Virus record (IMG/VR): IMGVR_UViG_3300044701_004558
Location: 1 to 51,766 of that record
DNA: 51,766 bases
Strand: one strand, 5' to 3'
From: a virus
Shown here: one piece after another, positions 1-22,736 of the stretch
Position numbering within the stretch: position 1 is the stretch's first letter
Layout: each line of letters opens with the position of its first letter
Notes under the pieces: model-generated
Told to the model about the DNA's origin: nothing
The model's input: the letters and a program-made list of their open reading frames with translations, nothing else
Database searches by the model: none
Program-made: the position numbers and the translations under genes

Positions 1-3000
1 CAGTGCCGCCACCAGCAGTGCCGCCAGCAAAGCCAGTATTAAAATTAAAACCCCAATTAACGCCGCCATTGCTATTAAATCCACCGTACATTCCACCGCC
101 GCCAGCCCCGCCAGCGCCAGGAGCAACGATATCCCAAGGGCCATTCCCAGCTGATCCTCCAGACCATTGATATCCAGGACAGCAAGAAGTAATACATGAG
201 CAGATAGTTTCTCCAAGCTCTTTAATTTTTTGCCCAATTAGATCTCCAAGGTTTGAAATTTCATCTCGCACATAACCAAATTCATCAGAGCATGCACATT
301 CAGAATCAGAATCTTTTTTATCTTTTTCTGCTTTGCCTTTTTCATCTTTTTTTATTCTATCATCTTCTGGCTTGTCATCCTTGGGTTTGTCATCTTTTGG
401 CTTATCTTCATCTTTCTTGCCATCATCTTTTTTATCATCATCTTTTTTATCATCTTTACCGCCCAATGCCGAATTTAATTTAGCAGCACTTTCACGTAAA
501 TTATTCAAACTATCGCTAGCATTTGTGGCGCTTTCTGCCAAAGGATCAATTTTACTAACAATATCGCTAAACTTCTCTGAAAGATCTGCTGCTTTTTTGG
601 CAGCATCTTCTGCTGCCTGATTGAATGGATTTTTCCATTTTTGATCTGACGTTTGTAATCCAAACATAGATCTTAACATATCTTCTGCGTTTTGTGCTCC
701 AATATTTCCAAGGCCCATTTGATTTAAATATGGACTCAGTCCAATTTGGTCTAAATAATACTGGGCCTGCTTTTGAAGATCTGGAAGTAATTGTTGCATC
801 AAGCCCTCTCTCAAAGCAGGATCTTTTATACCTAATGCATCAACAGCTTTTAGCCTTTCAAGACTCATATTCATTTCTTCTTTACGGGCTTCTTTTTGAA
901 GATCTTGCATTTCTCTTTGCAGCCTTTCTCTTTCTCTAGCTGCATTTTCTAATTCAGTTCTTCTTTGTTCTTCGAGATTTACTTCCTCATCTCGAATATC
1001 TTTCATTTGCCTATTATAATCTCTTGGGCCTATATCCCCAAAATCATATGCAGCTTGAAGATCTTCTTTTTCTTCACTGATATTTCTTTTAGATTTATTA
1101 TAATTTCTATCAGATTGCTGAACTTGTAAATTAATATTTTCAAAACTCCTATAAACTTCCTGTATACTTCTTGATATATCAGGCATTCTATTTCCGCTAT
1201 AATTTATTAATCCCTCTACACCGCCACCAAATGATTGCATTTTTTGGATACGCTCTGTAAATTGAGATACGGCTAAATCAAAAGCGGCTTTGACTTTTTC
1301 TGCTTCTGTTTCAAAATTTAAATTTTGCATCGCAAGCTTAAAGCTTTGTAGGCCATCTTGTAGCGATACATCCCAAACCCTCTTTAACGATTCGCCTGCT
1401 TCTCCCAATAATTGATCTAAATCAATACTTTCAATATCACCCAGAGTTACCGCAGATAACACTTTTTCTTTCAAGCCTTGCAATTTTTTTAACAATGCAG
1501 GATCTGGAGAAGTATCTGCTTGTGCAAGCTTTATTTGTTCATCTAATTTTTCTAATATTTTTTCTCTTACCGTATCTAGCGTTTCAGAACTTATTTGCAA
1601 TGTTTTGACTTTTTTAGAAAAATCAATATTTACGTTTCGATATTCTAGCTGCTCATCGGTTGTAAAATCTCTATTTTGCATCATCGCAGCTTCAAGCCCC
1701 TGAGAAAGGTCTAGCCCCAATTGTTGCATATTTATTCTTTTTATTTTATTTAAATTTCCTGTAAGTTCTGCTTGCTGATTAAATTTCTTTTCATTTTTTT
1801 GAAAGTTATTTATATAATCCTGATCTTCTTTGCTCAATTTAGATACATTTTTAGCGCGCAGATCCATTGCTTCTTTTATTTTTTGAGCGCTTTCTTTTGC
1901 TCCAGCTAATTCTTTTGATAGTGCCTGCAATAACGCTTGATAATCTGCAGTATCTGGATCCATTTCTTGAAATCTTTCCCTTATTTCTGCCACTCTTTCT
2001 TTTAGTAATTTTCCTTCTGCAGTTGAACCATCAATTTGTGATTCAAATTCATCTAAAACATTTTTCATTGCCTGCTCTCCGGCAAATACATTTCTTCCTG
2101 TATCTGGATTAAATACTAAATTATTTCCGTATGTATTTACTTTAGCTAGCGCATCATTTACTGATTTTTCTAAATTTGTAAACGTTTCAGCTTGCTGCTC
2201 TACTGTTTTTGCCGCACTGCCTTCGCCACCAATATCGTAAGAAGCAATTAGTCTTTTAGCTAAAGACTCGGCTTCTTTTTTAGAAGGCGTACTGAAAGAA
2301 GCATTCATTGCTTTTTCAAGATCTGCTGTTAAAGCATCTATCTCTGCTTTGTCAGTAGAATCTTGAGCATACTGAGCTAGAACTTCTTGAGCTGCGGCAG
2401 AGTCAGGTGCCTGCAAATATTTTTGTACATATTCTTTTGGAAGTTTTCCTAAGTCTGATAAATATTTTTGATTTGCTCTGGCAATTTTTTCAGGAGAAGA
2501 TTGCGGATCATTTAGTATATCATCATATGATTGTCTTGAAACAAGCACAGCCTGAACATTATCCGATGCTATCTGGGCAGATTCGGCAGATTTTTGCGCA
2601 GCATTTTCTAGATCAATTATACTAGTAGTAAGAGCATCTAATGTAGGCTTTGCAGAAATTGCTGCTCCAATTAATCCGCCTATTATTGCGCCTGGTATAG
2701 CTCCTTTACCAGCAAATTGAGCGCCAATCATGGCCCCGCTTAAGCCAAAGCTGGCTACATTTCCTATAGCTGTTGAAGCCGCTCCAACTTTTGTTTTTTG
2801 TCCGCCAGCAAATTCACTAACAACACCACTAAGAGCCTGAATTGTAAAGCCAGCAGCAAGTCCCTTATCAGCGGCAAATCTTCCAAATTTTTCCGATCTT
2901 GTTTCTTTCGCTCTTTCTCTAGCCAATCCTATAGTTTCTTGTCTTTGTTGTGATCTTTCCTGCGCTGCTTGAATTTGAGCTCTACGATTTTCTCTTTGCG

Positions 3001-6000
3001 CTGCTCCTTTTTCGCCAGCTTTTGTCCATGTTTGAGACTCTTGGTTAAATAGAGCCCTATTTTGCATTGCAATTTGCTCTTGTTGATTAATTTTATTTAA
3101 TTGACGATCTTGCCTTGATATTCTATCACGATTTTGCAAATCAAAATCATCAAGGCTTTTTCCAGATTTTGCTACTTCTGTTTTTAATTTTGATAACGAT
3201 CTCGTGCTATCTTCAAGTGCTCCGCCAAAAAATGCTAGCGCAAATAATAAGCTGGATACGCTTGCGGTAATAGCTGTTAAATCTGTTCCGCCAGAATCAT
3301 AAATATCTGATCCGGCATCGGTAGTTGCAAAATTAGGAATAAAGCCCGAAGATGCCAATAGACCGGCACCTTTCTGCATATCTGCCGAGTCTTTCATTGC
3401 TTTATTTTTTCCGCCATGATCGCGCATTGCAGAAGCAAACGACGGCTGACTTTTGTTTCTTATATGTAAAAACGGCTTTGTTCCCACTATGGCTTTTTCG
3501 CCAGAAACGGATTCTTCTAAAGCTAAAACATTTTTAGCGTATTCATCAGATGTTGCAAAATTGGGAACATAACCTGATGCAAAAGATTCAGAGCGTTGTT
3601 TAAAATTTTGAGTATATGTTCTTAATTGTTGAACAGCAGCTGGATTACTTGCTAAAATTTGCAAATCTTTATCTGATAAACCTAATAGTTTTGCATTTTC
3701 AGTCAGTGGTTTATATTTCAAATCCCCAATTCTAATTGCATCTAAGTTAAAACCAGCATTGGATTTTGATCCGTACAATAATTCTCTAAATTTGCTTAAT
3801 TTGTCTGGCGTGCCTAATTTAAGCAGAGCGCTTGATTGTATTCGCGTCAAAGCTGCCTGCGCAGCCATTCTTTCGCCTTGGGTTGCGCCACGCTTCATTA
3901 ATTCTTGAATGGCTGAAATATTTGGCGCAAAACTTGGAATATATCCAGATGCTGCCCCAGAAGTCTTAAACTGAGCCATTCTTTTTTCTATTTCTTTTTC
4001 AAGTTGCGGACCTCTTCTTAAATTTAATCCCTCTGCGTTGATGCTTTGTATTGCTTTTGCTCTAAGAGCTTGAACTTCGTTAAAACTAGGCCCACTTCTT
4101 ACTCTCTTAACTGCGCCTGGCTTTGCCTCATTAAGTAATTTTTGCATTACTTCATTTACTGCCCCTGGAGAACTTTTCGCATCATACATGCCAGGTGCCC
4201 CATGGAAAAGATTTCTTAATCTTGGGGTTATCCTATTCTGTCTAAAATCAATACCAGCATTTTGAGATGTTTTTTGCAATCCTTGCTGAAGTAAAGTAAT
4301 TAATCCTCCTTCAAAGGCTACACCAACAGCACCCTCCGCAGCGCCATAATTTGGAAGATCTTTTGGTGATTTTAGAAAATTTTTGCCACCTAAAATTTGA
4401 CCAAATTGATTAGCTTCACGAACAAGAAGGTCTCCTAAATTTTTTTGCAAATCAGGAAGCTGACCCTTTAGCATATTTTTGTTAATACCTGCAACAGGTA
4501 TTGTGCCTTTGTATTTTTTTCCAAGATATGTACCTACACCTGGCGCCATATCAAAACCATCTGAAACTCCTGGATGAATAAGAGATAGAACTTTTCCATT
4601 TAACAACTTAGAAGTCCTTGTATCGCCAAGATCAATAATTTCTTCATTTTGTTTAGGTGTGCCAGCAAAATTTGGAATGTAGCCAGATGCAGCATTTGGC
4701 ACTACTAATTTATAATTGCTTGGCATCTTGATATTATCAAAAGCTGGCGGATCTTGTTTAAGCGTTTTTTGATAATTAGTTTCAATTACTTTAGAAATTA
4801 AATTGTCTTTATCGATTCTACCAAATTTAACTTCAGCTGCTGGCTTACCACTTTTATCTAACAAATCCATTCTTGCATTTTGCTTTTGTGCAATTTGTAG
4901 CCCAAGCCTATTTGCTGCAAATCTTTCAAAATATTTTCCTAATAAACTATTTTTAACGCCAGATAATTGCCCGCTTTTACTTACATAGTCTTTATTATCA
5001 GCTAATAAGCTTGGAACCTTTTTTTTGCTAGTAAGTAGGTTTTGTTTTAGTTGATCGACCTGACTCAGTGAATATCCATTTCTAGTAAAATATTTTGATG
5101 CTGCTCCTGCTAATTTTGGATCTTCTGAATTTAAATTATTTAATTGCTTATCAAACTGCTTTTCAAATCCCGCTTTGCTACCAATCGATACAACATCGAA
5201 AGAAAATGCAGAATGCATATCCAAATTAGCATTAGCTACTTGAGATGACTGTCGCCCTGAAATTACTCCGCCAGGAAAAGACTTTGTTTCTTGCGGTTGT
5301 GCAAAGTTTGGAATATAACCAGACGCTGAAATTTTACGAGCACCATCAGGTAGCCCATATTTTTGTTTCATTTCTCTGTTCCAAATTGCAGTTCCATCAC
5401 CGCCCCCATAATTAGGGACAGCCCATTCTCCAGTATGTGCTGTTATGGGTCCCTTTTTGCCGCCACCAAATGGAAAATTTTTGATAGTGACGGGCTTATC
5501 TGTTCTTGGGTTTGCGCCGCCAACTCTGTTACCAATATTTGCTGCCTCACTAAATTGCTCTGGTGGCAAATATCCACCAGCAGCACCTTTTATTTTTGCA
5601 CCTTTTTGAGTTATATATTGTTTACCAGCAACGCTTTGTATTCCAACTTGTGATGATACTGCTTTTGCTACTTGAGCAGCTACTGTGCCTTGCTTTTGCA
5701 ACTCTGCAGTTTGCATTTTAATTACGTTTAAATAAGCATTTGCCGCAGATGTCGCGCTTGTTTGTCCAGCGACTATTGATTTATAAACACCAGCATTGCT
5801 TTGCAAAAACTTAATTACGCTTTGCTGAATAGCTGCTTGTTCTTTTGATGCTTGATTTACTCCCAATATACTTCTAAATGCTTCAACTCCATATTTAGAA
5901 AATTGAGCAAACATTTTAACAATTGCAGCTGTTACAAGAGCGAGACCAGGTCCGCCTATAAAGTTTCCTATACCAGAAACTACGCCTCTTCCAATTTTTG

Positions 6001-7222
6001 CACCAACGCTAGAAGAGTCTGTATCATTTACAGCTCCGGTTATCAAATCTGTTATATTTAAAACATTTTTAGTGGCAGGACCAAATAGCTGAGACCCAAC
6101 ATTCGCTCCTGCTTCCTGCAATCCTGCTAAAGTTTTTAGACCTCTAGCAGATAAGGTTTCATTTAATTTTTCATTTCTTCTAATTGCTTCATCAGTAGAA
6201 CTTAAAGATGTTTTTAAAGCTTGGTCATAAATAGAATATTCTTTACCCAAATCTCCTAAAGCTGCCTTTAAAACGTTTATTTGAAAAACTCCACCAACCT
6301 GTTCGGCAACGTAATTTTTTTGAGTAGCACTTAATGTATCATAAATACTGGCTAATTCTTTTAAAAGTTGAACTTGATTTTTAACATTGCCCTGCTCATC
6401 TGTTGGGCTTACTCCTAAACCGCCCAATACATCTTGAACTTTTTCTCTACCAAGTCTAGTAAATATAGTTTTTAAAGAGTTACCTATAACAGATCCTCCT
6501 CTAGCCGTAACTTGTTGAGCTGTAGTAACTAAAGCTATTAATTCATCAAAAGAAACGCCAGCGTCAGAAGCTGAAGATCCAACCCTACTTAATGCATTAG
6601 CCAAGTCAGCAGAACTAACAGCAAATGCAGCATCAACATTTGCTAATTTATTCACAATCTCTTCGGCTTCAAGAGCAGATGTGCCAAAAGAATTTATAGC
6701 AGAAGTAAGAGCGGAAACGCTAGCTGCAGCATCTAAGCCACTCAATCGAGTTAAAACCAAAGCTGCCTCTGTTCTTTTTAGAGTTTCTTCTACGCCTAAA
6801 CCCTGACGCGCCAATTCTGTAGCTGCTTCAGCAACTACATCAAATGATTGAGCGGTATTGCCTGCAATATCAAAAAGTGCTGATCCAAACTTTGCTATAC
6901 TTGCGCTTGAAGCATTTAGTAAAACATTAATATCCGTTAATTTTTTCTCTACATTTACAAAAGAATCAAAAACTGCTTTTACAGCAGCCTGTATGCCGTA
7001 TATAGCTGAAGCGGACGCAGCAAAAGCTACTACACGAGCATTTGCCGCAGCTAATGACTTATCTAATTCGGCAACTTGCCCTGTTATACGGCCAAGTGGT
7101 GCCGCAGCTGCCCCAGCAGATCTTACATCTAGAACTATTGGTGTTTTTGCAATGTCGTCAATTTGGCGCCTTAGTTTCGCCGTATTGCCGTCTACATCAA
7201 CTCTAATATTTGGGTTTGCCAT
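1..7222 (-). CDS. Tail tape measure protein with embedded nuclease-like domains (3' end beyond window)
   Basis: The open frame starts with MANPNIRVDVDG at 7222 and is open for over 2,400 codons to the left edge, so the C-terminus is missing. Residues about 90-270 look like the TP901/PhageMin_Tail tape measure core (ELARQGLGVEETLK, followed by TARGGSVIGNSLKTIFTRLG). Hydrophobic stretches lie near residues 410-430, 1310-1330 and 1490-1525; such segments are usual in tape measure proteins that enter the host membrane. Between about 630 and 1300, five SGYIPNFA-like repeats separate compact domains, two with nuclease-like residues. The later part is Gln/Glu/Lys-rich coiled coil. It ends in a Lys/Asp-rich tract (about + strand 330-460), a Cys-rich patch and a Gly-rich tail. 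The protein should set tail length and be ejected with the DNA. The family call is firm; the cargo idea is inference. Confidence 0.92.
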   Translation of the reverse strand, partial: MANPNIRVDVDGNTAKLRRQIDDIAKTPIVLDVRSAGAAAAPLGRITGQVAELDKSLAAANARVVAFAASASAIYGIQAAVKAVFDSFVNVEKKLTDINVLLNASSASIAKFGSALFDIAGNTAQSFDVVAEAATELARQGLGVEETLKRTEAALVLTRLSGLDAAASVSALTSAINSFGTSALEAEEIVNKLANVDAAFAVSSADLANALSRVGSSASDAGVSFDELIALVTTAQQVTARGGSVIGNSLKTIFTRLGREKVQDVLGGLGVSPTDEQGNVKNQVQLLKELASIYDTLSATQKNYVAEQVGGVFQINVLKAALGDLGKEYSIYDQALKTSLSSTDEAIRRNEKLNETLSARGLKTLAGLQEAGANVGSQLFGPATKNVLNITDLITGAVNDTDSSSVGAKIGRGVVSGIGNFIGGPGLALVTAAIVKMFAQFSKYGVEAFRSILGVNQASKEQAAIQQSVIKFLQSNAGVYKSIVAGQTSATSAANAYLNVIKMQTAELQKQGTVAAQVAKAVSSQVGIQSVAGKQYITQKGAKIKGAAGGYLPPEQFSEAANIGNRVGGANPRTDKPVTIKNFPFGGGKKGPITAHTGEWAVPNYGGGDGTAIWNREMKQKYGLPDGARKISASGYIPNFAQPQETKSFPGGVISGRQSSQVANANLDMHSAFSFDVVSIGSKAGFEKQFDKQLNNLNSEDPKLAGAASKYFTRNGYSLSQVDQLKQNLLTSKKKVPSLLADNKDYVSKSGQLSGVKNSLLGKYFERFAANRLGLQIAQKQNARMDLLDKSGKPAAEVKFGRIDKDNLISKVIETNYQKTLKQDPPAFDNIKMPSNYKLVVPNAASGYIPNFAGTPKQNEEIIDLGDTRTSKLLNGKVLSLIHPGVSDGFDMAPGVGTYLGKKYKGTIPVAGINKNMLKGQLPDLQKNLGDLLVREANQFGQILGGKNFLKSPKDLPNYGAAEGAVGVAFEGGLITLLQQGLQKTSQNAGIDFRQNRITPRLRNLFHGAPGMYDAKSSPGAVNEVMQKLLNEAKPGAVKRVRSGPSFNEVQALRAKAIQSINAEGLNLRRGPQLEKEIEKRMAQFKTSGAASGYIPSFAPNISAIQELMKRGATQGERMAAQAALTRIQSSALLKLGTPDKLSKFRELLYGSKSNAGFNLDAIRIGDLKYKPLTENAKLLGLSDKDLQILASNPAAVQQLRTYTQNFKQRSESFASGYVPNFATSDEYAKNVLALEESVSGEKAIVGTKPFLHIRNKSQPSFASAMRDHGGKNKAMKDSADMQKGAGLLASSGFIPNFATTDAGSDIYDSGGTDLTAITASVSSLLFALAFFGGALEDSTRSLSKLKTEVAKSGKSLDDFDLQNRDRISRQDRQLNKINQQEQIAMQNRALFNQESQTWTKAGEKGAAQRENRRAQIQAAQERSQQRQETIGLARERAKETRSEKFGRFAADKGLAAGFTIQALSGVVSEFAGGQKTKVGAASTAIGNVASFGLSGAMIGAQFAGKGAIPGAIIGGLIGAAISAKPTLDALTTSIIDLENAAQKSAESAQIASDNVQAVLVSRQSYDDILNDPQSSPEKIARANQKYLSDLGKLPKEYVQKYLQAPDSAAAQEVLAQYAQDSTDKAEIDALTADLEKAMNASFSTPSKKEAESLAKRLIASYDIGGEGSAAKTVEQQAETFTNLEKSVNDALAKVNTYGNNLVFNPDTGRNVFAGEQAMKNVLDEFESQIDGSTAEGKLLKERVAEIRERFQEMDPDTADYQALLQALSKELAGAKESAQKIKEAMDLRAKNVSKLSKEDQDYINNFQKNEKKFNQQAELTGNLNKIKRINMQQLGLDLSQGLEAAMMQNRDFTTDEQLEYRNVNIDFSKKVKTLQISSETLDTVREKILEKLDEQIKLAQADTSPDPALLKKLQGLKEKVLSAVTLGDIESIDLDQLLGEAGESLKRVWDVSLQDGLQSFKLAMQNLNFETEAEKVKAAFDLAVSQFTERIQKMQSFGGGVEGLINYSGNRMPDISRSIQEVYRSFENINLQVQQSDRNYNKSKRNISEEKEDLQAAYDFGDIGPRDYNRQMKDIRDEEVNLEEQRRTELENAARERERLQREMQDLQKEARKEEMNMSLERLKAVDALGIKDPALREGLMQQLLPDLQKQAQYYLDQIGLSPYLNQMGLGNIGAQNAEDMLRSMFGLQTSDQKWKNPFNQAAEDAAKKAADLSEKFSDIVSKIDPLAESATNASDSLNNLRESAAKLNSALGGKDDKKDDDKKDDGKKDEDKPKDDKPKDDKPEDDRIKKDEKGKAEKDKKDSDSECACSDEFGYVRDEISNLGDLIGQKIKELGETICSCITSCCPGYQWSGGSAGNGPWDIVAPGAGGAGGGGMYGGFNSNGGVNWGFNFNTGFAGGTAGGGT
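3956..4663 (-). other. PD-(D/E)XK nuclease-like domain 2 inside the tape measure protein
   Basis: This segment lies between the second and third SGYIPNFA repeats. It shows GAVGVAFEGG (Glu 971), AGIDFRQ (Asp 992) and MYDAKSS (Asp 1014, Lys 1016). These fit an E...D...DxK arrangement of a PD-(D/E)XK nuclease with a longer spacing (about 22 residues) than domain 1. The two domains share no obvious sequence outside the putative catalytic residues, so they would be separate acquisitions rather than a tandem duplication. The case is weaker than for domain 1. Confidence 0.45.
4693..5300 (-). other. PD-(D/E)XK nuclease-like domain 1 inside the tape measure protein
   Basis: This segment lies between the first and second SGYIPNFA repeats. 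It contains a helix with GKYFERFAANRLG (Glu at residue 766), then ARMDLL (Asp 786), then AAEVKFG (Glu 797, Lys 799). An amphipathic stretch and a hydrophobic strand (YKLVV) follow. The order Glu in a helix, Asp at the start of a strand, and ExK about 11 residues later is the signature of the PD-(D/E)XK nuclease fold. The residues are seen directly; the fold and any activity are inferred. Confidence 0.6.
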
Positions 7223-17342: not shown

Positions 17343-20300
17343 TTAACTTATTCCAAAGATCGATTTGGTATTATTAAAATATGTCAATATCTCAGCATCT
17401 GTTAAAACTCTACTATATAGCGCGGCTGATGAGATACTTCCTTGAAAATATTCACCGGCGCTCCGGCTTCCAATACTATAATTTCCACTACTGCTTGCAA
17501 AAGTAGCTGAATATGATCGCGTAACATCTAAAACCCCATTGATATAAAATTTTGTTTCTGTTCCGGTATGCGATACAGCAAGAAGCTTCCAGTTTGTATC
17601 GAGTATTTGTGAGGCTGAAGATGTAGAGCCTGTACCTACTTTACCAAGTGTAAGAAAATTATTAACAAAATAAAAGCCCCAACCGCCAGTATTAACACTC
17701 ATAAATAATCTGTCAACAGTCGTAGATGTTGTTGTTCTAGCTCTCCTTACCCACATTAAAAGTGTTAATTGGTTATAATCAACATTTGAAAGAGTTCCAT
17801 AGTTGGAGGTCCCATTAAAATATGCATATCTTGCCCCAACGCTTTTAACTTTTTGCACTGGCGTTCCTTCATATGCAGCGTCTGTTCCAAAGCCCATTGT
17901 GTTAAGCAGGGTCACATTCCTACCCTTTCCACTCAAATCATTCCAAAGATTTATGTTCCAAGGCGATGACTTGTGATTAAGATTTAAATATAATTCCAGA
18001 TTAGTTCTATTTATGCTTTCTTGTTCTTGAATTTTTGGCAATTCTTTGTTGTAATTTGCTAAGATTTCGCTTGAAGTTAAAACTTTATTATAAACCGTAA
18101 CAGACGCAATTCTACCACCAAGCTGATCTGTAGTTCCAGTATTCGTTTTGGTAGCACCTATTGATGGAAAAACTGTTGTATTCCATGGAGTAGCTGAGTC
18201 ATTTAAAGTGGCTATTTCTACTCCATTTAGAAAAACTCTCATAACATTACCAGCAAGGCTATGAATAAAAACAAGATTATTCCACTGATTCAACGGCGTA
18301 CTAAATAATAATTGTTTTCTATTTGTTGAGTTATTCGCAGGATTTACAACAAATTCATTAGTTCTTGCCCAAACAGATTCCCAAGATACTGAACCAAGAT
18401 GGTTACTCAATAAAGTTCCATCTTTAGTTTTATAAAACCAAACAGATATTGAAAAGTTTGGCATGGAGCTGGTAAATGGATTGTAATCTAAATTTACATA
18501 ATCATTTGTGCCATCAAAAATTATATTTCCACCATCTTGGCTTGTAAATATTGGAGTGTTTGTTAATGCGAACTCTCCACCATTTCCACTCAAATCGTAC
18601 CACTGGTTTGCAACTGTTGTACCAGGATATGAAGCAGGATTTGACGCATCAACTGTGAAAACTACATTGTTTGTAAATGCAAATCTTGAACTTGTAGCGT
18701 TGTAATTGCTTAAAACCTGTGCTGCGCTGAGCTCTCTGTTATATATTTTATAAATATTACAATAACCTTTGAATTGCGCATTATCTGAGCGACCATGACT
18801 ATTAAACATTTGACCAATTTCTGATGGAAATATGTCTTGTATATTAGCAGTGCTAAGATTTATTTTAGATCCTATCTGTACTCCGTTTTTATATAAATAT
18901 GCTCTTGCATTGCCAATATCCCATGTTACGCACATATGTACCCATTTATTTAATGGGTAATGGGTTTTACGCAATGATCCTATAGCAAAATCTTGATCAC
19001 AACACGTATTTGGTGTTCTTCCTTGTCTCAAGTAAAAAGTATTACCATTATCCCACATCCCAACCCAAAACCAATTCTCTGTGTTTGTAAAATTAGCCCC
19101 ATCTGCATTAACAAACCAGCCATGGGCGCCACCGTCCGAAAGATCTGTTGGCTTCAACCACATTTCTAACGCTCCTTCTATTTTATTAAATCCTTTTAGC
19201 GGAATATTAATTCCAGCGCCATAATAAACACTGTTTGATTCATTATATAAACACATTAATCCAGTATCTGGATCATTTCTAAAAGTCCAATTATTAGACC
19301 TATTCTGAACATTTATATCCCCCATCGTTTCTGATAAATCTTTCCAAATTGTACCACCAGAATATGATTTTGGGTTCGAAGCATCTAGATGTAAAACAAG
19401 ACCATCATTATTTGATGGGGCTCCAAATCTAAGCCTTAAAGTATTAAAAATTTGTGCAATTTCTTCTTGTGAAAATGCTCTGTCATATACCATAAAATGG
19501 CCAACATCTCCAAATGGTTGTACACCAGCATGGTTTCCTAGCTCAAGATGCGCATTTCCAACCAAATTAAAATTTAATGTATTTCCGGTTATTGACCCAT
19601 CATTAATAAACAATTTTGATGTTGCGCCATTTTGGCCAACAAGAGTGTACATGGCCCAACAATTCTCTAATCCTAATGTTCCTAAGTTTAAGCCATAACT
19701 ATTAAAACTATTTGTATTATTATCATAATATCCAACAATATTAGAATTATTTTGCACTATTATTCCATGATCATTTGGGGAAGATCTTAAAAGAGTTCTC
19801 CAGTCACCGACTTTACCATCAGGTAATAATTTTGCCCATACAATTACTGTATAATTTGGCCCATAAGTAAACGTATTATTTGCGTCAGGCCTTAATCTTC
19901 GTTCATTTGATGTTAAATTTACAGCAGTTACGTTACTTGAATTTCTAAAATTTGTGGATGTTAAATAATGATTATAGCCATTTTCCGAAAGATCTTGCCA
20001 TTGAGTCCCAAAATTTTTATAAGATTCTTCTCCCAAATAAAGTATTAAACCATTGGTTGGAATACCTTTTAATATTTTTGGCTCTGGAGATTTTGCGGCT
20101 TCTTTTTGCGGCAGGGGAAGCCCTAACAAATTTATAATAGGAGTAGTACCTCTTGTTACTTTTATATCATCCATGTAGCCATTAAAAAATCCTATACCGC
20201 CATATCCATTTCCTATTTTAAATACTGCTTGAGTATGTGAATATACAGTACCGTCAATTGTTTGATCCAAAACTCCATTAATAAATATTGAATAACGATA

Positions 20301-22736
20301 TTGATTTTTTACAAGAGCAACGTGTGTCCATTGGTTTTGTGGAACATTTGTTATTCCTGAACTTTCGCTCATTCTTGTTCCAGCATTAGCATAAAATCCA
20401 AGCTTTTGGTTGCTTCCGCGATAAAAACAAAAAGCGCCAGTAGCGTCAGAGTTTCCTTGGTTAAAAATACACGCAACAGTATTTGTTGTTGGATATATCC
20501 ATGCTTCTAATACATAATCATCAGAACCAAGTATTAAATTATTATTTGTTGTAGATAGAGATGTTGAGCCATTAAAAAATAATGTATTATTACCATTTCT
20601 TGTTTGTGCATTTGTGGCCTGTGGGCTTCCAACTATCGTGAATTCAGTGAGTGCAAGAGATGAATCTTTGAGAAAATTCACTGCGCTATCAGAAATACTA
20701 GAATTAATTAGTAAAGAAACATTAGCGGAATCATTTTCAAATCTAGATTGCGGAACTGCAAAATTTCCACTATATCTTGCAACGCCCTTTGTTATTCTTA
20801 CGTCATCAATATATCCACCAAGAAGTTGTCCTCCGCCAGAATGAATGGATGCCCCAAAAAAACCAGCTGCTGAGCTTCCCAGATTTGCAGTATTTATGGT
20901 TGAAAATACAGAATTTCCATTTATATAAATATCAAATTTGTTACCAACCCTAACTAAGGCAAGATGATTCCATTGATTTAATGGAAAATTAGCTGCAGGA
21001 TTCCATCCGTAATTAGTACCTGCTATATAAAGCGGATCATTATTTGTAGCCTGCAGTCTAATCATCAAACCATTTTGATAAGCATTTGACCCAGTTCCAA
21101 TCTCAAATACCGTATTCCAATCTGTTATTGAGGAACTTTTAAAAACCCACATTTCTATTGTAAAATCTGCAGATCCAAAACCAAGAGCTGTTGTTGTTGG
21201 AATGTTTACATACCCAGAACTAAAGTTCGCTGATCCGGCACCATATTTTTTTATAGATGTAGATATTTGTGGAGATCCCCCAGTTGTTACTGTTTTTGGG
21301 CTTGAAGATGAATCGGAAAAATTACTATTCATATTTAGTAATAATTCGACATTGTTCCAATACTGATCAGAAGAATTATTTGGAAATTCTGCAGCTGGCG
21401 GTATAAAAGTTAAACCATATCTAGAATATCCCCTTGTTATTCTAAGATCATCGATATATCCTTGGAAAAATGCGTTTGGACTATTTGGGCTTGCACATCC
21501 AACAGCAATCGAAGAGCTGGCATTTGTTACTGTTATTGTTGTGCTTGCCAATGCAATGCCATTTAAAAATAAAGTTAAAATACTACCGTTGTAAGCTAAT
21601 GCCACATGCTGCCAAGTATTAACCTGAACAGATGCTGGCACATCCCAAACCGTGTTAGCATTACTTGTCATGAATTTAAATCTAGCATTATTAAATAGTA
21701 ATAACCAAGATAAATTAACACCATACTGATCTTTTGAAAATATAGTCTGATCTGTTGAAGAAATTGCGGTTGGATAAATCCACGCTTCAATGGTGAATGG
21801 TATACCACTCAAATTAAACACCGCATTATCTGCTAAAGATAAAAAATCGCCATTTCCATCAAAATACGCAGCCTGATTTCTGTTTGGTAACGTAACAGCG
21901 TTAGATATTTGTGCATTTCCATTTGTAGTAATTGTCAAATTATTATTTGAAGAATCGATAAAAGATGTTGACCCATTTGTTCCGTTCATGTTGAGAAGTA
22001 GGGAAACATTGCCAAAATATGAATCGTTAGAGCTAGACATTTCCTCTGTAGGGGGAACAAAATTCAAATTAAAATATCTAGGAACACCTTTTGTCACTCT
22101 AATCGAATCAATATATCCTAGAAATTTTTCTGTATCGTTAGTCAATCCACCAATTGATGTTGTCCAACTGCCAGCATTAGCATTGGCAATAAACGAATGA
22201 ACTTCAACGCCATTTAAAAATAACTTTATTACAGATCCCACTCTAATTGCTGCTACATGACTCCAAGCAAAAGCCTGCGGTGTTGTGGTTGAATTATATA
22301 CGGTGCCATTATAAAAAGATAATACTCCATTTGTTATATTTAAATATAATTGCCAATCACATGAAGATGTATTACTATTTCTTTTCGAAATAATAGTACT
22401 AACAGTACTATAATTACCAAATGGATATATCCACGCTTCTATAGCCCAATTTGTATTATTTAAATTTAAAACAACATTATCTGGAGTAGTAATTCTGCAA
22501 TTTGTTTCTCTATCAAAATACATGCTTGCATTTCCAAACTTTTTAACATTGGATGAAAACCTAACAGTACCATTTGCTGTTAGTGGTAAAGCGTATGATG
22601 AGGTGTCAGAAAAATTTCTTAAATCACTGAATCCAGCAAGCCCATTGCCCCGCAAAAGCAATACCATAGAAGAATAATAATTTATAAATAAATTTTTTAA
22701 TCTACCAGCAACCGCTACTATTCCTTTTAATAACAT
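17343..22736 (-). CDS. Giant multi-domain LamG (concanavalin A-like) adhesin
   Basis: This 1,797-residue protein is built of about eight LamG/jelly-roll lectin-type domains. The landmark strand, x-E-A-W-I-Y-P or a variant (EAWIYP, EMWVFK, VWAKLL, EMWLKP, VWFYKT, LMWVRR), recurs near residues 100, 314, 525, 742, 965, 1190, 1432 and 1660. Domains 1-4 also carry KLFLNGVEV-type and GYIDSIRVTKG-type strands and open with a LLLNMNG-like segment. Domains 5-8 open with LVLHLDASNPxSY-like sequence and form a second subtype. There is no signal peptide. LamG domains bind glycans, so a virion adhesion role is likely. It is preceded by a fibre gene ending one base upstream and probably shares its transcript. 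Confidence 0.8.
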   Translation of the reverse strand: MLLKGIVAVAGRLKNLFINYYSSMVLLLRGNGLAGFSDLRNFSDTSSYALPLTANGTVRFSSNVKKFGNASMYFDRETNCRITTPDNVVLNLNNTNWAIEAWIYPFGNYSTVSTIISKRNSNTSSCDWQLYLNITNGVLSFYNGTVYNSTTTPQAFAWSHVAAIRVGSVIKLFLNGVEVHSFIANANAGSWTTSIGGLTNDTEKFLGYIDSIRVTKGVPRYFNLNFVPPTEEMSSSNDSYFGNVSLLLNMNGTNGSTSFIDSSNNNLTITTNGNAQISNAVTLPNRNQAAYFDGNGDFLSLADNAVFNLSGIPFTIEAWIYPTAISSTDQTIFSKDQYGVNLSWLLLFNNARFKFMTSNANTVWDVPASVQVNTWQHVALAYNGSILTLFLNGIALASTTITVTNASSSIAVGCASPNSPNAFFQGYIDDLRITRGYSRYGLTFIPPAAEFPNNSSDQYWNNVELLLNMNSNFSDSSSSPKTVTTGGSPQISTSIKKYGAGSANFSSGYVNIPTTTALGFGSADFTIEMWVFKSSSITDWNTVFEIGTGSNAYQNGLMIRLQATNNDPLYIAGTNYGWNPAANFPLNQWNHLALVRVGNKFDIYINGNSVFSTINTANLGSSAAGFFGASIHSGGGQLLGGYIDDVRITKGVARYSGNFAVPQSRFENDSANVSLLINSSISDSAVNFLKDSSLALTEFTIVGSPQATNAQTRNGNNTLFFNGSTSLSTTNNNLILGSDDYVLEAWIYPTTNTVACIFNQGNSDATGAFCFYRGSNQKLGFYANAGTRMSESSGITNVPQNQWTHVALVKNQYRYSIFINGVLDQTIDGTVYSHTQAVFKIGNGYGGIGFFNGYMDDIKVTRGTTPIINLLGLPLPQKEAAKSPEPKILKGIPTNGLILYLGEESYKNFGTQWQDLSENGYNHYLTSTNFRNSSNVTAVNLTSNERRLRPDANNTFTYGPNYTVIVWAKLLPDGKVGDWRTLLRSSPNDHGIIVQNNSNIVGYYDNNTNSFNSYGLNLGTLGLENCWAMYTLVGQNGATSKLFINDGSITGNTLNFNLVGNAHLELGNHAGVQPFGDVGHFMVYDRAFSQEEIAQIFNTLRLRFGAPSNNDGLVLHLDASNPKSYSGGTIWKDLSETMGDINVQNRSNNWTFRNDPDTGLMCLYNESNSVYYGAGINIPLKGFNKIEGALEMWLKPTDLSDGGAHGWFVNADGANFTNTENWFWVGMWDNGNTFYLRQGRTPNTCCDQDFAIGSLRKTHYPLNKWVHMCVTWDIGNARAYLYKNGVQIGSKINLSTANIQDIFPSEIGQMFNSHGRSDNAQFKGYCNIYKIYNRELSAAQVLSNYNATSSRFAFTNNVVFTVDASNPASYPGTTVANQWYDLSGNGGEFALTNTPIFTSQDGGNIIFDGTNDYVNLDYNPFTSSMPNFSISVWFYKTKDGTLLSNHLGSVSWESVWARTNEFVVNPANNSTNRKQLLFSTPLNQWNNLVFIHSLAGNVMRVFLNGVEIATLNDSATPWNTTVFPSIGATKTNTGTTDQLGGRIASVTVYNKVLTSSEILANYNKELPKIQEQESINRTNLELYLNLNHKSSPWNINLWNDLSGKGRNVTLLNTMGFGTDAAYEGTPVQKVKSVGARYAYFNGTSNYGTLSNVDYNQLTLLMWVRRARTTTSTTVDRLFMSVNTGGWGFYFVNNFLTLGKVGTGSTSSASQILDTNWKLLAVSHTGTETKFYINGVLDVTRSYSATFASSSGNYSIGSRSAGEYFQGSISSAALYSRVLTDAEILTYFNNTKSIFGIS

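Follow-up and report, generated by a model that had tools for sequence, protein, structure and literature searches.

The tape measure protein (TMP) of phages is usually regarded as a ruler that helps the host membrane to open. Its length sets the length of the tail, and it exits the virion ahead of the DNA or forms a conduit for it. Phages are known to send proteins into the cell along with their DNA, and peptidoglycan-hydrolase domains occur in TMPs, where they act on the cell wall during penetration. The role of the TMP as a conduit for the DNA has been described (PMC7824862).

The polyvalent proteins of phages and conjugative elements have many enzyme domains per polypeptide, which are predicted to enter the host along with the DNA and to act there early (Iyer et al. 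2017, PMC5512222). TMPs go unmentioned in that paper. In the MuF polymorphic toxins of temperate phages, the toxin is a variable C-terminal part of a head protein (Jamet et al. 2017, PMC5576092). The Sle1-type effectors of actinobacterial contractile injection systems are remotely homologous to TMPs, are packaged in a tail-like particle and have diverse swappable domains, one of which is presumed to act on nucleic acids and has a cognate immunity protein (PMC13277306, 2026). According to the same study, TMP-related proteins can serve as reconfigurable effectors of a contractile particle. In a large study of phage protein mosaicism, signals were seen in TMPs and real cases were left unconfirmed (PMC10684548).

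The motif-bounded TMP cassettes described here address the gap left by the mosaicism study. The protein resembles the polyvalent proteins in being a single polypeptide with many enzyme-like domains, apparently for early action on the host, but its cassettes ride on the TMP rather than on a separate protein, and its units are bounded by a peptide motif. With the MuF toxins it shares the combination of a virion protein with variable enzyme domains (many of the MuF ones are nucleases) and a proposed delivery with the DNA. The MuF carrier, however, is a head protein of temperate phages with a C-terminal toxin, whereas here several internal cassettes sit in a tail protein and no integrase was found. 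The Sle1 effectors are also TMP-related proteins with swappable functional domains, but they belong to a bacterial nanomachine and vary in a C-terminal domain, whereas the array studied here is internal, has multiple cassettes and lies in the phage's own TMP. TMPs with peptidoglycan hydrolases likewise have an enzyme domain built in; their target is the cell wall, whereas the present cassettes look aimed at the cytoplasm. We regard the array as an extension of the theme of injected multi-domain effectors and not as a separate category. No such cassette array was found among 50,697 phage records or in the literature searched. The string GYIPNFA was in no paper of that literature, outside which most subscription journals and preprints lie.

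Results

A motif-bounded array in the TMP

We analysed a stretch of 51,766 nucleotides, hereafter the window (positions 1 to 51,766 of IMG/VR virus record IMGVR_UViG_3300044701_004558). The TMP ORF (Table 1) encodes at least 2407 aa; it is open at the window edge and its C-terminus is missing. It has a TP901-type TMP domain according to TIGR01760, PF10145 and the PHROG TMP family. The original prediction had placed two nuclease-like segments, delimited by three SGYIPNFA repeats, inside a TMP. The identity of the protein was confirmed by the three libraries. The three repeats and two segments were correct, but the full count is five SGYIPNFA-type motifs bounding four cassettes. The eight residues that had been singled out (E766, D786, E797, K799, E971, D992, D1014 and K1016) are all where they were said to be. 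To speak of two nucleases in a TMP undersells the case: the protein exemplifies arrays of shuffled cassettes that are delimited by a motif. Nothing above the cut-off was found for the four segments in the Pfam, PHROGs, NCBIfam and PDB sequence libraries.

Table 1. Features of the TMP and its cassette array in the window (L123 is contig 3300044638_008494)
Feature	Position in window	Strand	Evidence or remark
TMP ORF	2..7222	minus	TIGR01760 5.1e-37, PF10145 1.4e-30, phrog_4211 1.6e-47
Conserved N-terminal tape-measure domain, PhageMin_Tail (res 121-311)	6290..6862	minus	profile match
Motif 1, SGYIPNFA (res 634-641)	5300..5323	minus	
Cassette 1 (res 642-845), candidate divergent PD-(D/E)XK domain, E766, D786, E797-x-K799	4688..5299	minus	residues; single relative L123 at 70%; dN/dS 0.14; model pLDDT 37
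Motif 2, SGYIPNFA (res 846-853)	4664..4687	minus	
Cassette 2 (res 854-1091), predicted PD-(D/E)XK-type nuclease domain, E971, D992, D1014-x-K1016, K1028	3950..4663	minus	83/83 aligned rows; 34/34 held-out rows; AF2 pLDDT 88.7
Motif 3, SGYIPSFA (res 1092-1099)	3926..3949	minus	L123 has two extra cassettes at this site
Cassette 3 (res 1100-1215)	3578..3925	minus	family common to about 10 other TMPs
Motif 4, SGYVPNFA (res 1216-1223)	3554..3577	minus	
Cassette 4 (res 1224-1291), small, ~60 aa	3350..3553	minus	recurrent last unit of many arrays
Motif 5, SGFIPNFA (res 1292-1299), array end	3326..3349	minus	

The family of the last unit has a consensus like PLxxAIxREixAGVPxSQIRV...NPxGLxVxNTRDEP, of which cassette 4 is a variant, and it carries no enzyme signature. 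This cassette may mark the end of the array.

Cassette 2, a predicted nuclease

The pattern E-x12-26-D-x8-26-[DE]xK was present in 42% of the shuffles of segment 1 and 38% of those of segment 2. As shuffles show it so often, the pattern alone is not above chance and is no evidence by itself. Segment 2 rises above chance because its residues are conserved in distant homologues, a support that segment 1 does not have.

Close relatives of cassette 2 were found on two contigs (80% and 70% identity). With an alignment as the query, 17 loci were obtained, and iterated profile searching of all the ORFs fetched raised the number of matches to about 100. The search for this domain between the motifs of other phages thus revealed a widespread TMP-borne family. 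In the alignment of 83 rows, residue 971 is E in 76 and D in 7. D at 992, D or E at 1014 and K at 1016 hold without exception, and 82 rows have K or Q at 1028. Columns of the wider alignment are on average 18% identical. Among loci fetched later, which lay outside the profile, the signature was kept in all 34 unique rows, 32 of them less than 60% identical to any training row, although profile searches favour rows that retain the profile's strongest columns. The E, D and (D/E)xK of PD-(D/E)XK enzymes therefore occur in order in every row of both sets. Loss of the acidic and Lys residues in homologues would have spoken against the original prediction, and the homologues of segment 2 have kept them.

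The AlphaFold2 model of cassette 2 (54 rows) had a pLDDT of 88.7 and a pTM of 0.72, with pLDDT 77-98 at the positions of the catalytic residues. A helix carries E971, a short bridge follows D992, D1014-x-K1016 is placed at a strand, and K1028 belongs to the helix after it. Between the helix with E971 and the strand with D1014-x-K1016, the model shows no obvious beta1-beta2 hairpin. Structure prediction of this segment thus gave a confident fold with the residues on the expected elements, but Foldseek found no significant match in PDB and BFVD and no known PD-(D/E)XK structure. Comparisons by hhalign with a small Mrr_cat alignment, the only family compared, and with cassette 1 were not significant either. 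Judging from dN/dS (0.14 for segment 1, against L123; 0.10 for segment 2; and 0.11 for the TMP N-terminus), both segments are under purifying selection.

Cassette 2 is well supported as a putative metal-dependent nuclease, and it is probably one of the PD-(D/E)XK type. We predict this identity because of the residue invariance and the secondary-structure placement: the E-D-(D/E)xK-[KQ] signature sits on the expected elements, whereas sequence, profile (Mrr_cat tested) and Foldseek matches to the superfamily are absent. Alternatively, the domain might represent a new metal-dependent enzyme fold that shares the E-D-(D/E)xK-K signature and is not PD-(D/E)XK. A high-confidence model that matches nothing in PDB or BFVD and a profile unlinked to Mrr_cat are what a new fold would give. 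However, the spacing, order and placement of the residues are as expected of PD-(D/E)XK enzymes, and this superfamily is notorious for undetectable sequence similarity. We consider a new fold unlikely. It would concern the identity of the domain and is compatible with any functional reading of the array.

Cassette 1, a weaker candidate

Three viral-contig scans, one of which returned none, gave a single relative of cassette 1, that in L123 (70% identity). E766, D786, E797 and K799 are kept in both copies, which carries little weight at such identity. The AlphaFold2 model built from the two sequences was unusable (pLDDT 37). Separate modelling of segment 1 therefore failed and the search for its domain in other phages ended at L123; of the two nucleases first proposed, the invariant residues favour the second, and the first has one relative and no usable model. 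Profile matches of cassette 1 to other arrays were dropped, as they were due to the shared motif only.

The same slot in neighbouring phages holds PD-(D/E)XK-like segments, recognized by profile in L124, L070, L130 and L138 and by eye in L128, L129, L131 and L132. This is a positional argument only. The dN/dS of cassette 1 indicates that it is under constraint. From these sequence comparisons it is a plausible candidate for a divergent nuclease, with about an even chance of being one.

The motif in uncultured phages

IMG/VR was scanned twice for the motif DNA, the second time for a variant, and each scan returned at least 120 loci. Together they placed the motif in TMP-like ORFs on uncultured viral contigs, at least about 190 in number; a few of the collected motif ORFs may encode other virion proteins or match by chance. 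The first set and its relatives comprised at least 131 motif ORFs (115 nonredundant) and, counting those of at least 40 aa, 258 segments between motifs. The second set added at least 79 motif ORFs, with 124 segments that were at least 70 aa long. The motif has the consensus [AS]xG[YF][IV]PNFA and little is conserved outside it. As the copies were collected by a regular expression, per-position figures are limited in meaning.

The 324 copies of the motif DNA represent 206 distinct sequences, and only one of 398 within-genome pairs is identical. Since copies of the motif within a genome are unlike in their DNA, selection acts on the peptide, not on the DNA. For the same reason, the motif is supported neither as a DNA recombination site nor as a product of recent duplication. 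Eight records of 104-178 kb contain 46 motif matches in total, which in each record are confined to a single locus, the TMP; a reversed-pattern control gave 0. This restriction to the TMP leaves a genome-wide protease site unsupported. In the cassette 2 model, both flanking motifs had low confidence and no secondary structure, which fits the expectation for linkers.

No integrase was found in the window record or the eight long relatives. This suggests that the carriers are lytic phages, although the records may be incomplete. The same records contained no N6/N4 DNA methylase, which would be one possible means of self-protection, and no Pfam sheath protein. The array-flanking region and two members of the cassette 2 family had no match among the 50,697 phage records. 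A genome collection yielded 11 motif matches. Four were TMP-like and came from MAG bins of Flavobacteriaceae (two), Verrucomicrobiales and Woesebacteria; the rest were apparently chance matches or unrelated proteins. In the Chloroflexi/Anaerolineae MAG proteins L145, L147, L149 and L152, A[DE]GYIPNFA lies about 30 aa before the C-termini; these proteins do not seem to be related to the TMPs of phages.

Cassette exchange at the motifs

Cassettes change their order, and are gained or lost, at the edges of motifs. The order is P-loop, PD-(D/E)XK, PD-(D/E)XK, HAD-like, s3 in L018; PD-(D/E)XK, c8, GNAT, P-loop, s3, HAD-like in L133; and s3, P-loop, PD-(D/E)XK in L085. We measured 494 alignment ends within the arrays of 18 TMPs. 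Their median distance to a motif edge was 2 aa and 73% fell within 15 aa, compared with 40 aa and 23% for random positions, although such clustering is partly expected as the conserved motif draws alignments. The exchange is clearest between the window and L123, whose TMPs share 76% identity across residues 4-1104. Beyond residue 1104, L123 has about 299 extra residues between two motif copies, a 56-aa cassette and a 225-aa kinase-like cassette, and then homology returns.

Cassette repertoire

Between the motifs we found PD-(D/E)XK-like, staphylococcal-nuclease (SNase), P-loop, HAD-like, GNAT, GHKL-ATPase, nucleotidyltransferase, ART-like and kinase-like cassettes. The labels HAD-like (DWDGTI), ART-like, zincin-like and protein-kinase-like come from reading motifs by eye, with no database match above the cut-off. 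The PD-(D/E)XK cassette was the commonest, in 92 of 131 motif ORFs among the matches listed. The SNase cassette (1.8e-9, and in three more phages by profile) and a nucleotidyltransferase-associated cassette in L224 (HIGH_NTase1_ass, 3.3e-8) were above the cut-off. The GNAT cassette had a database match at 4e-7, and the P-loop cassette matched at 3.2e-4 and a PDB profile at 9.7e-6. A GHKL ATPase cassette between motifs (L284:10454-12154, minus) was just below the cut-off (HATPase_c_3, 3.7e-5). No PDB chain was found with the HAD-like cassette profile, and no convincing one with the ART-like and kinase-like cassettes (one each). The cassettes at L131:6646-8091 (plus) and L224:4892-6145 (minus) combine P-loop-like and nucleotidyltransferase-like regions.

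The scanned cassettes gave no convincing match to a peptidoglycan hydrolase, and their targets therefore look cytoplasmic. A constant carrier with several interchangeable enzyme-like domains, as in polyvalent and polymorphic effector proteins, is what the array presents.

Discussion

Our best reading, to which we give somewhat better than an even chance, is a modular effector array ejected with the TMP. We favour delivered effectors because the enzyme-like domains are mostly of nucleic-acid, nucleotide or protein-modifying kinds and are swapped at peptide borders; cargo delivery would fit both the repertoire and the swapping. The middle of the TMP consists of interchangeable cassettes separated by copies of a linear peptide motif. 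On our reading this array would be carried in the virion as part of the TMP and would pass through the tail ahead of the DNA. In the host cytoplasm the domains, either freed or tethered by flexible motif linkers, might target the DNA of the host or of competitors, or the host's enzymes and defences. The PD-(D/E)XK domain would serve as the shared core cargo, accompanied by the remaining cassettes as a rotating accessory set. The motif may be a flexible linker or a processing site; that it serves the processing or handling of cassettes is speculative. Against the array reading, a DNase made late in infection would have to stay inactive. The tail lumen measures about 4 nm, and folded domains of 20-25 kDa in several TMP copies would be hard to fit into it, so the domains may be unfolded in transit or located elsewhere.

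We propose a fuller version tentatively, as one that may well prove wrong: the TMP of a large group of uncultured phages would be a tail-delivered polyprotein of swappable enzymes, with the motif as a processing or handling signal and the nuclease as standard cargo, in a class distinct from head-packaged effectors.

The nuclease cassettes might instead process the phage's own DNA (its ends, ejection, early repair or recombination) rather than foreign DNA, with the P-loop and HAD-like cassettes of the same arrays as end-repair partners. As expected of a core function, no cassette is more frequent than the PD-(D/E)XK one (in 92 of the 131 motif ORFs, among the matches listed), and P-loop and HAD-like (DWDGTI) cassettes accompany it in one TMP in L018, L122, L115, L133 and L136. 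However, many arrays lack the P-loop and HAD-like cassettes, the ART-like, GNAT and kinase-like cassettes are better matched by host targets, and a core function at DNA ends would not usually show high turnover. We therefore think own-DNA processing improbable. The combination of P-loop, HAD-like and PD-(D/E)XK cassettes recalls a nucleic-acid end-repair set of kinase, phosphatase and nuclease.

Equally improbable in our estimation is that the cassettes are specifically effectors of anti-defence or superinfection exclusion and not general takeover enzymes. They would nick or degrade plasmid, prophage or rival phage DNA, or modify defence proteins. The rapid turnover and mixed chemistry of the cassettes resemble an arms race, and injected multi-enzyme proteins have been read in this way (PMC5512222), but sequence cannot tell this role from host takeover. 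A structural role, in which inserted domains with residual catalytic-looking residues pad or organise the tape or serve as assembly chaperone sites, would suit the general dependence of tail length on TMP length, the small cassettes (s4 type) and motif linkers that lack a catalytic signature, and the absence of a fold match for cassette 2, but it is very unlikely given the strict E, D, (D/E), K invariance of cassette 2, the SNase and GNAT domains among the cassettes and the purifying selection on the segments.

If the array is indeed delivered with the TMP, the tape measure protein would be a general cargo carrier, and what tails deliver would become a directly testable question. GYIPNFA would then offer a simple sequence handle for discovering many phage effector domains.

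Elsewhere in the window, a 1797-aa protein (17343-22736, minus) matched several baseplate-wedge and virion-protein PHROGs, the best at 1.3e-143; most of the surrounding ORFs tested had no match. Near the visible C-terminus of the TMP (window about 100-420, minus), a long Lys/Asp-rich stretch (KDDKKDDDKKDD...) is followed by a cysteine-rich segment (SECACSDEF...ETICSCITSCCPGY) and then by a Gly-rich tail.
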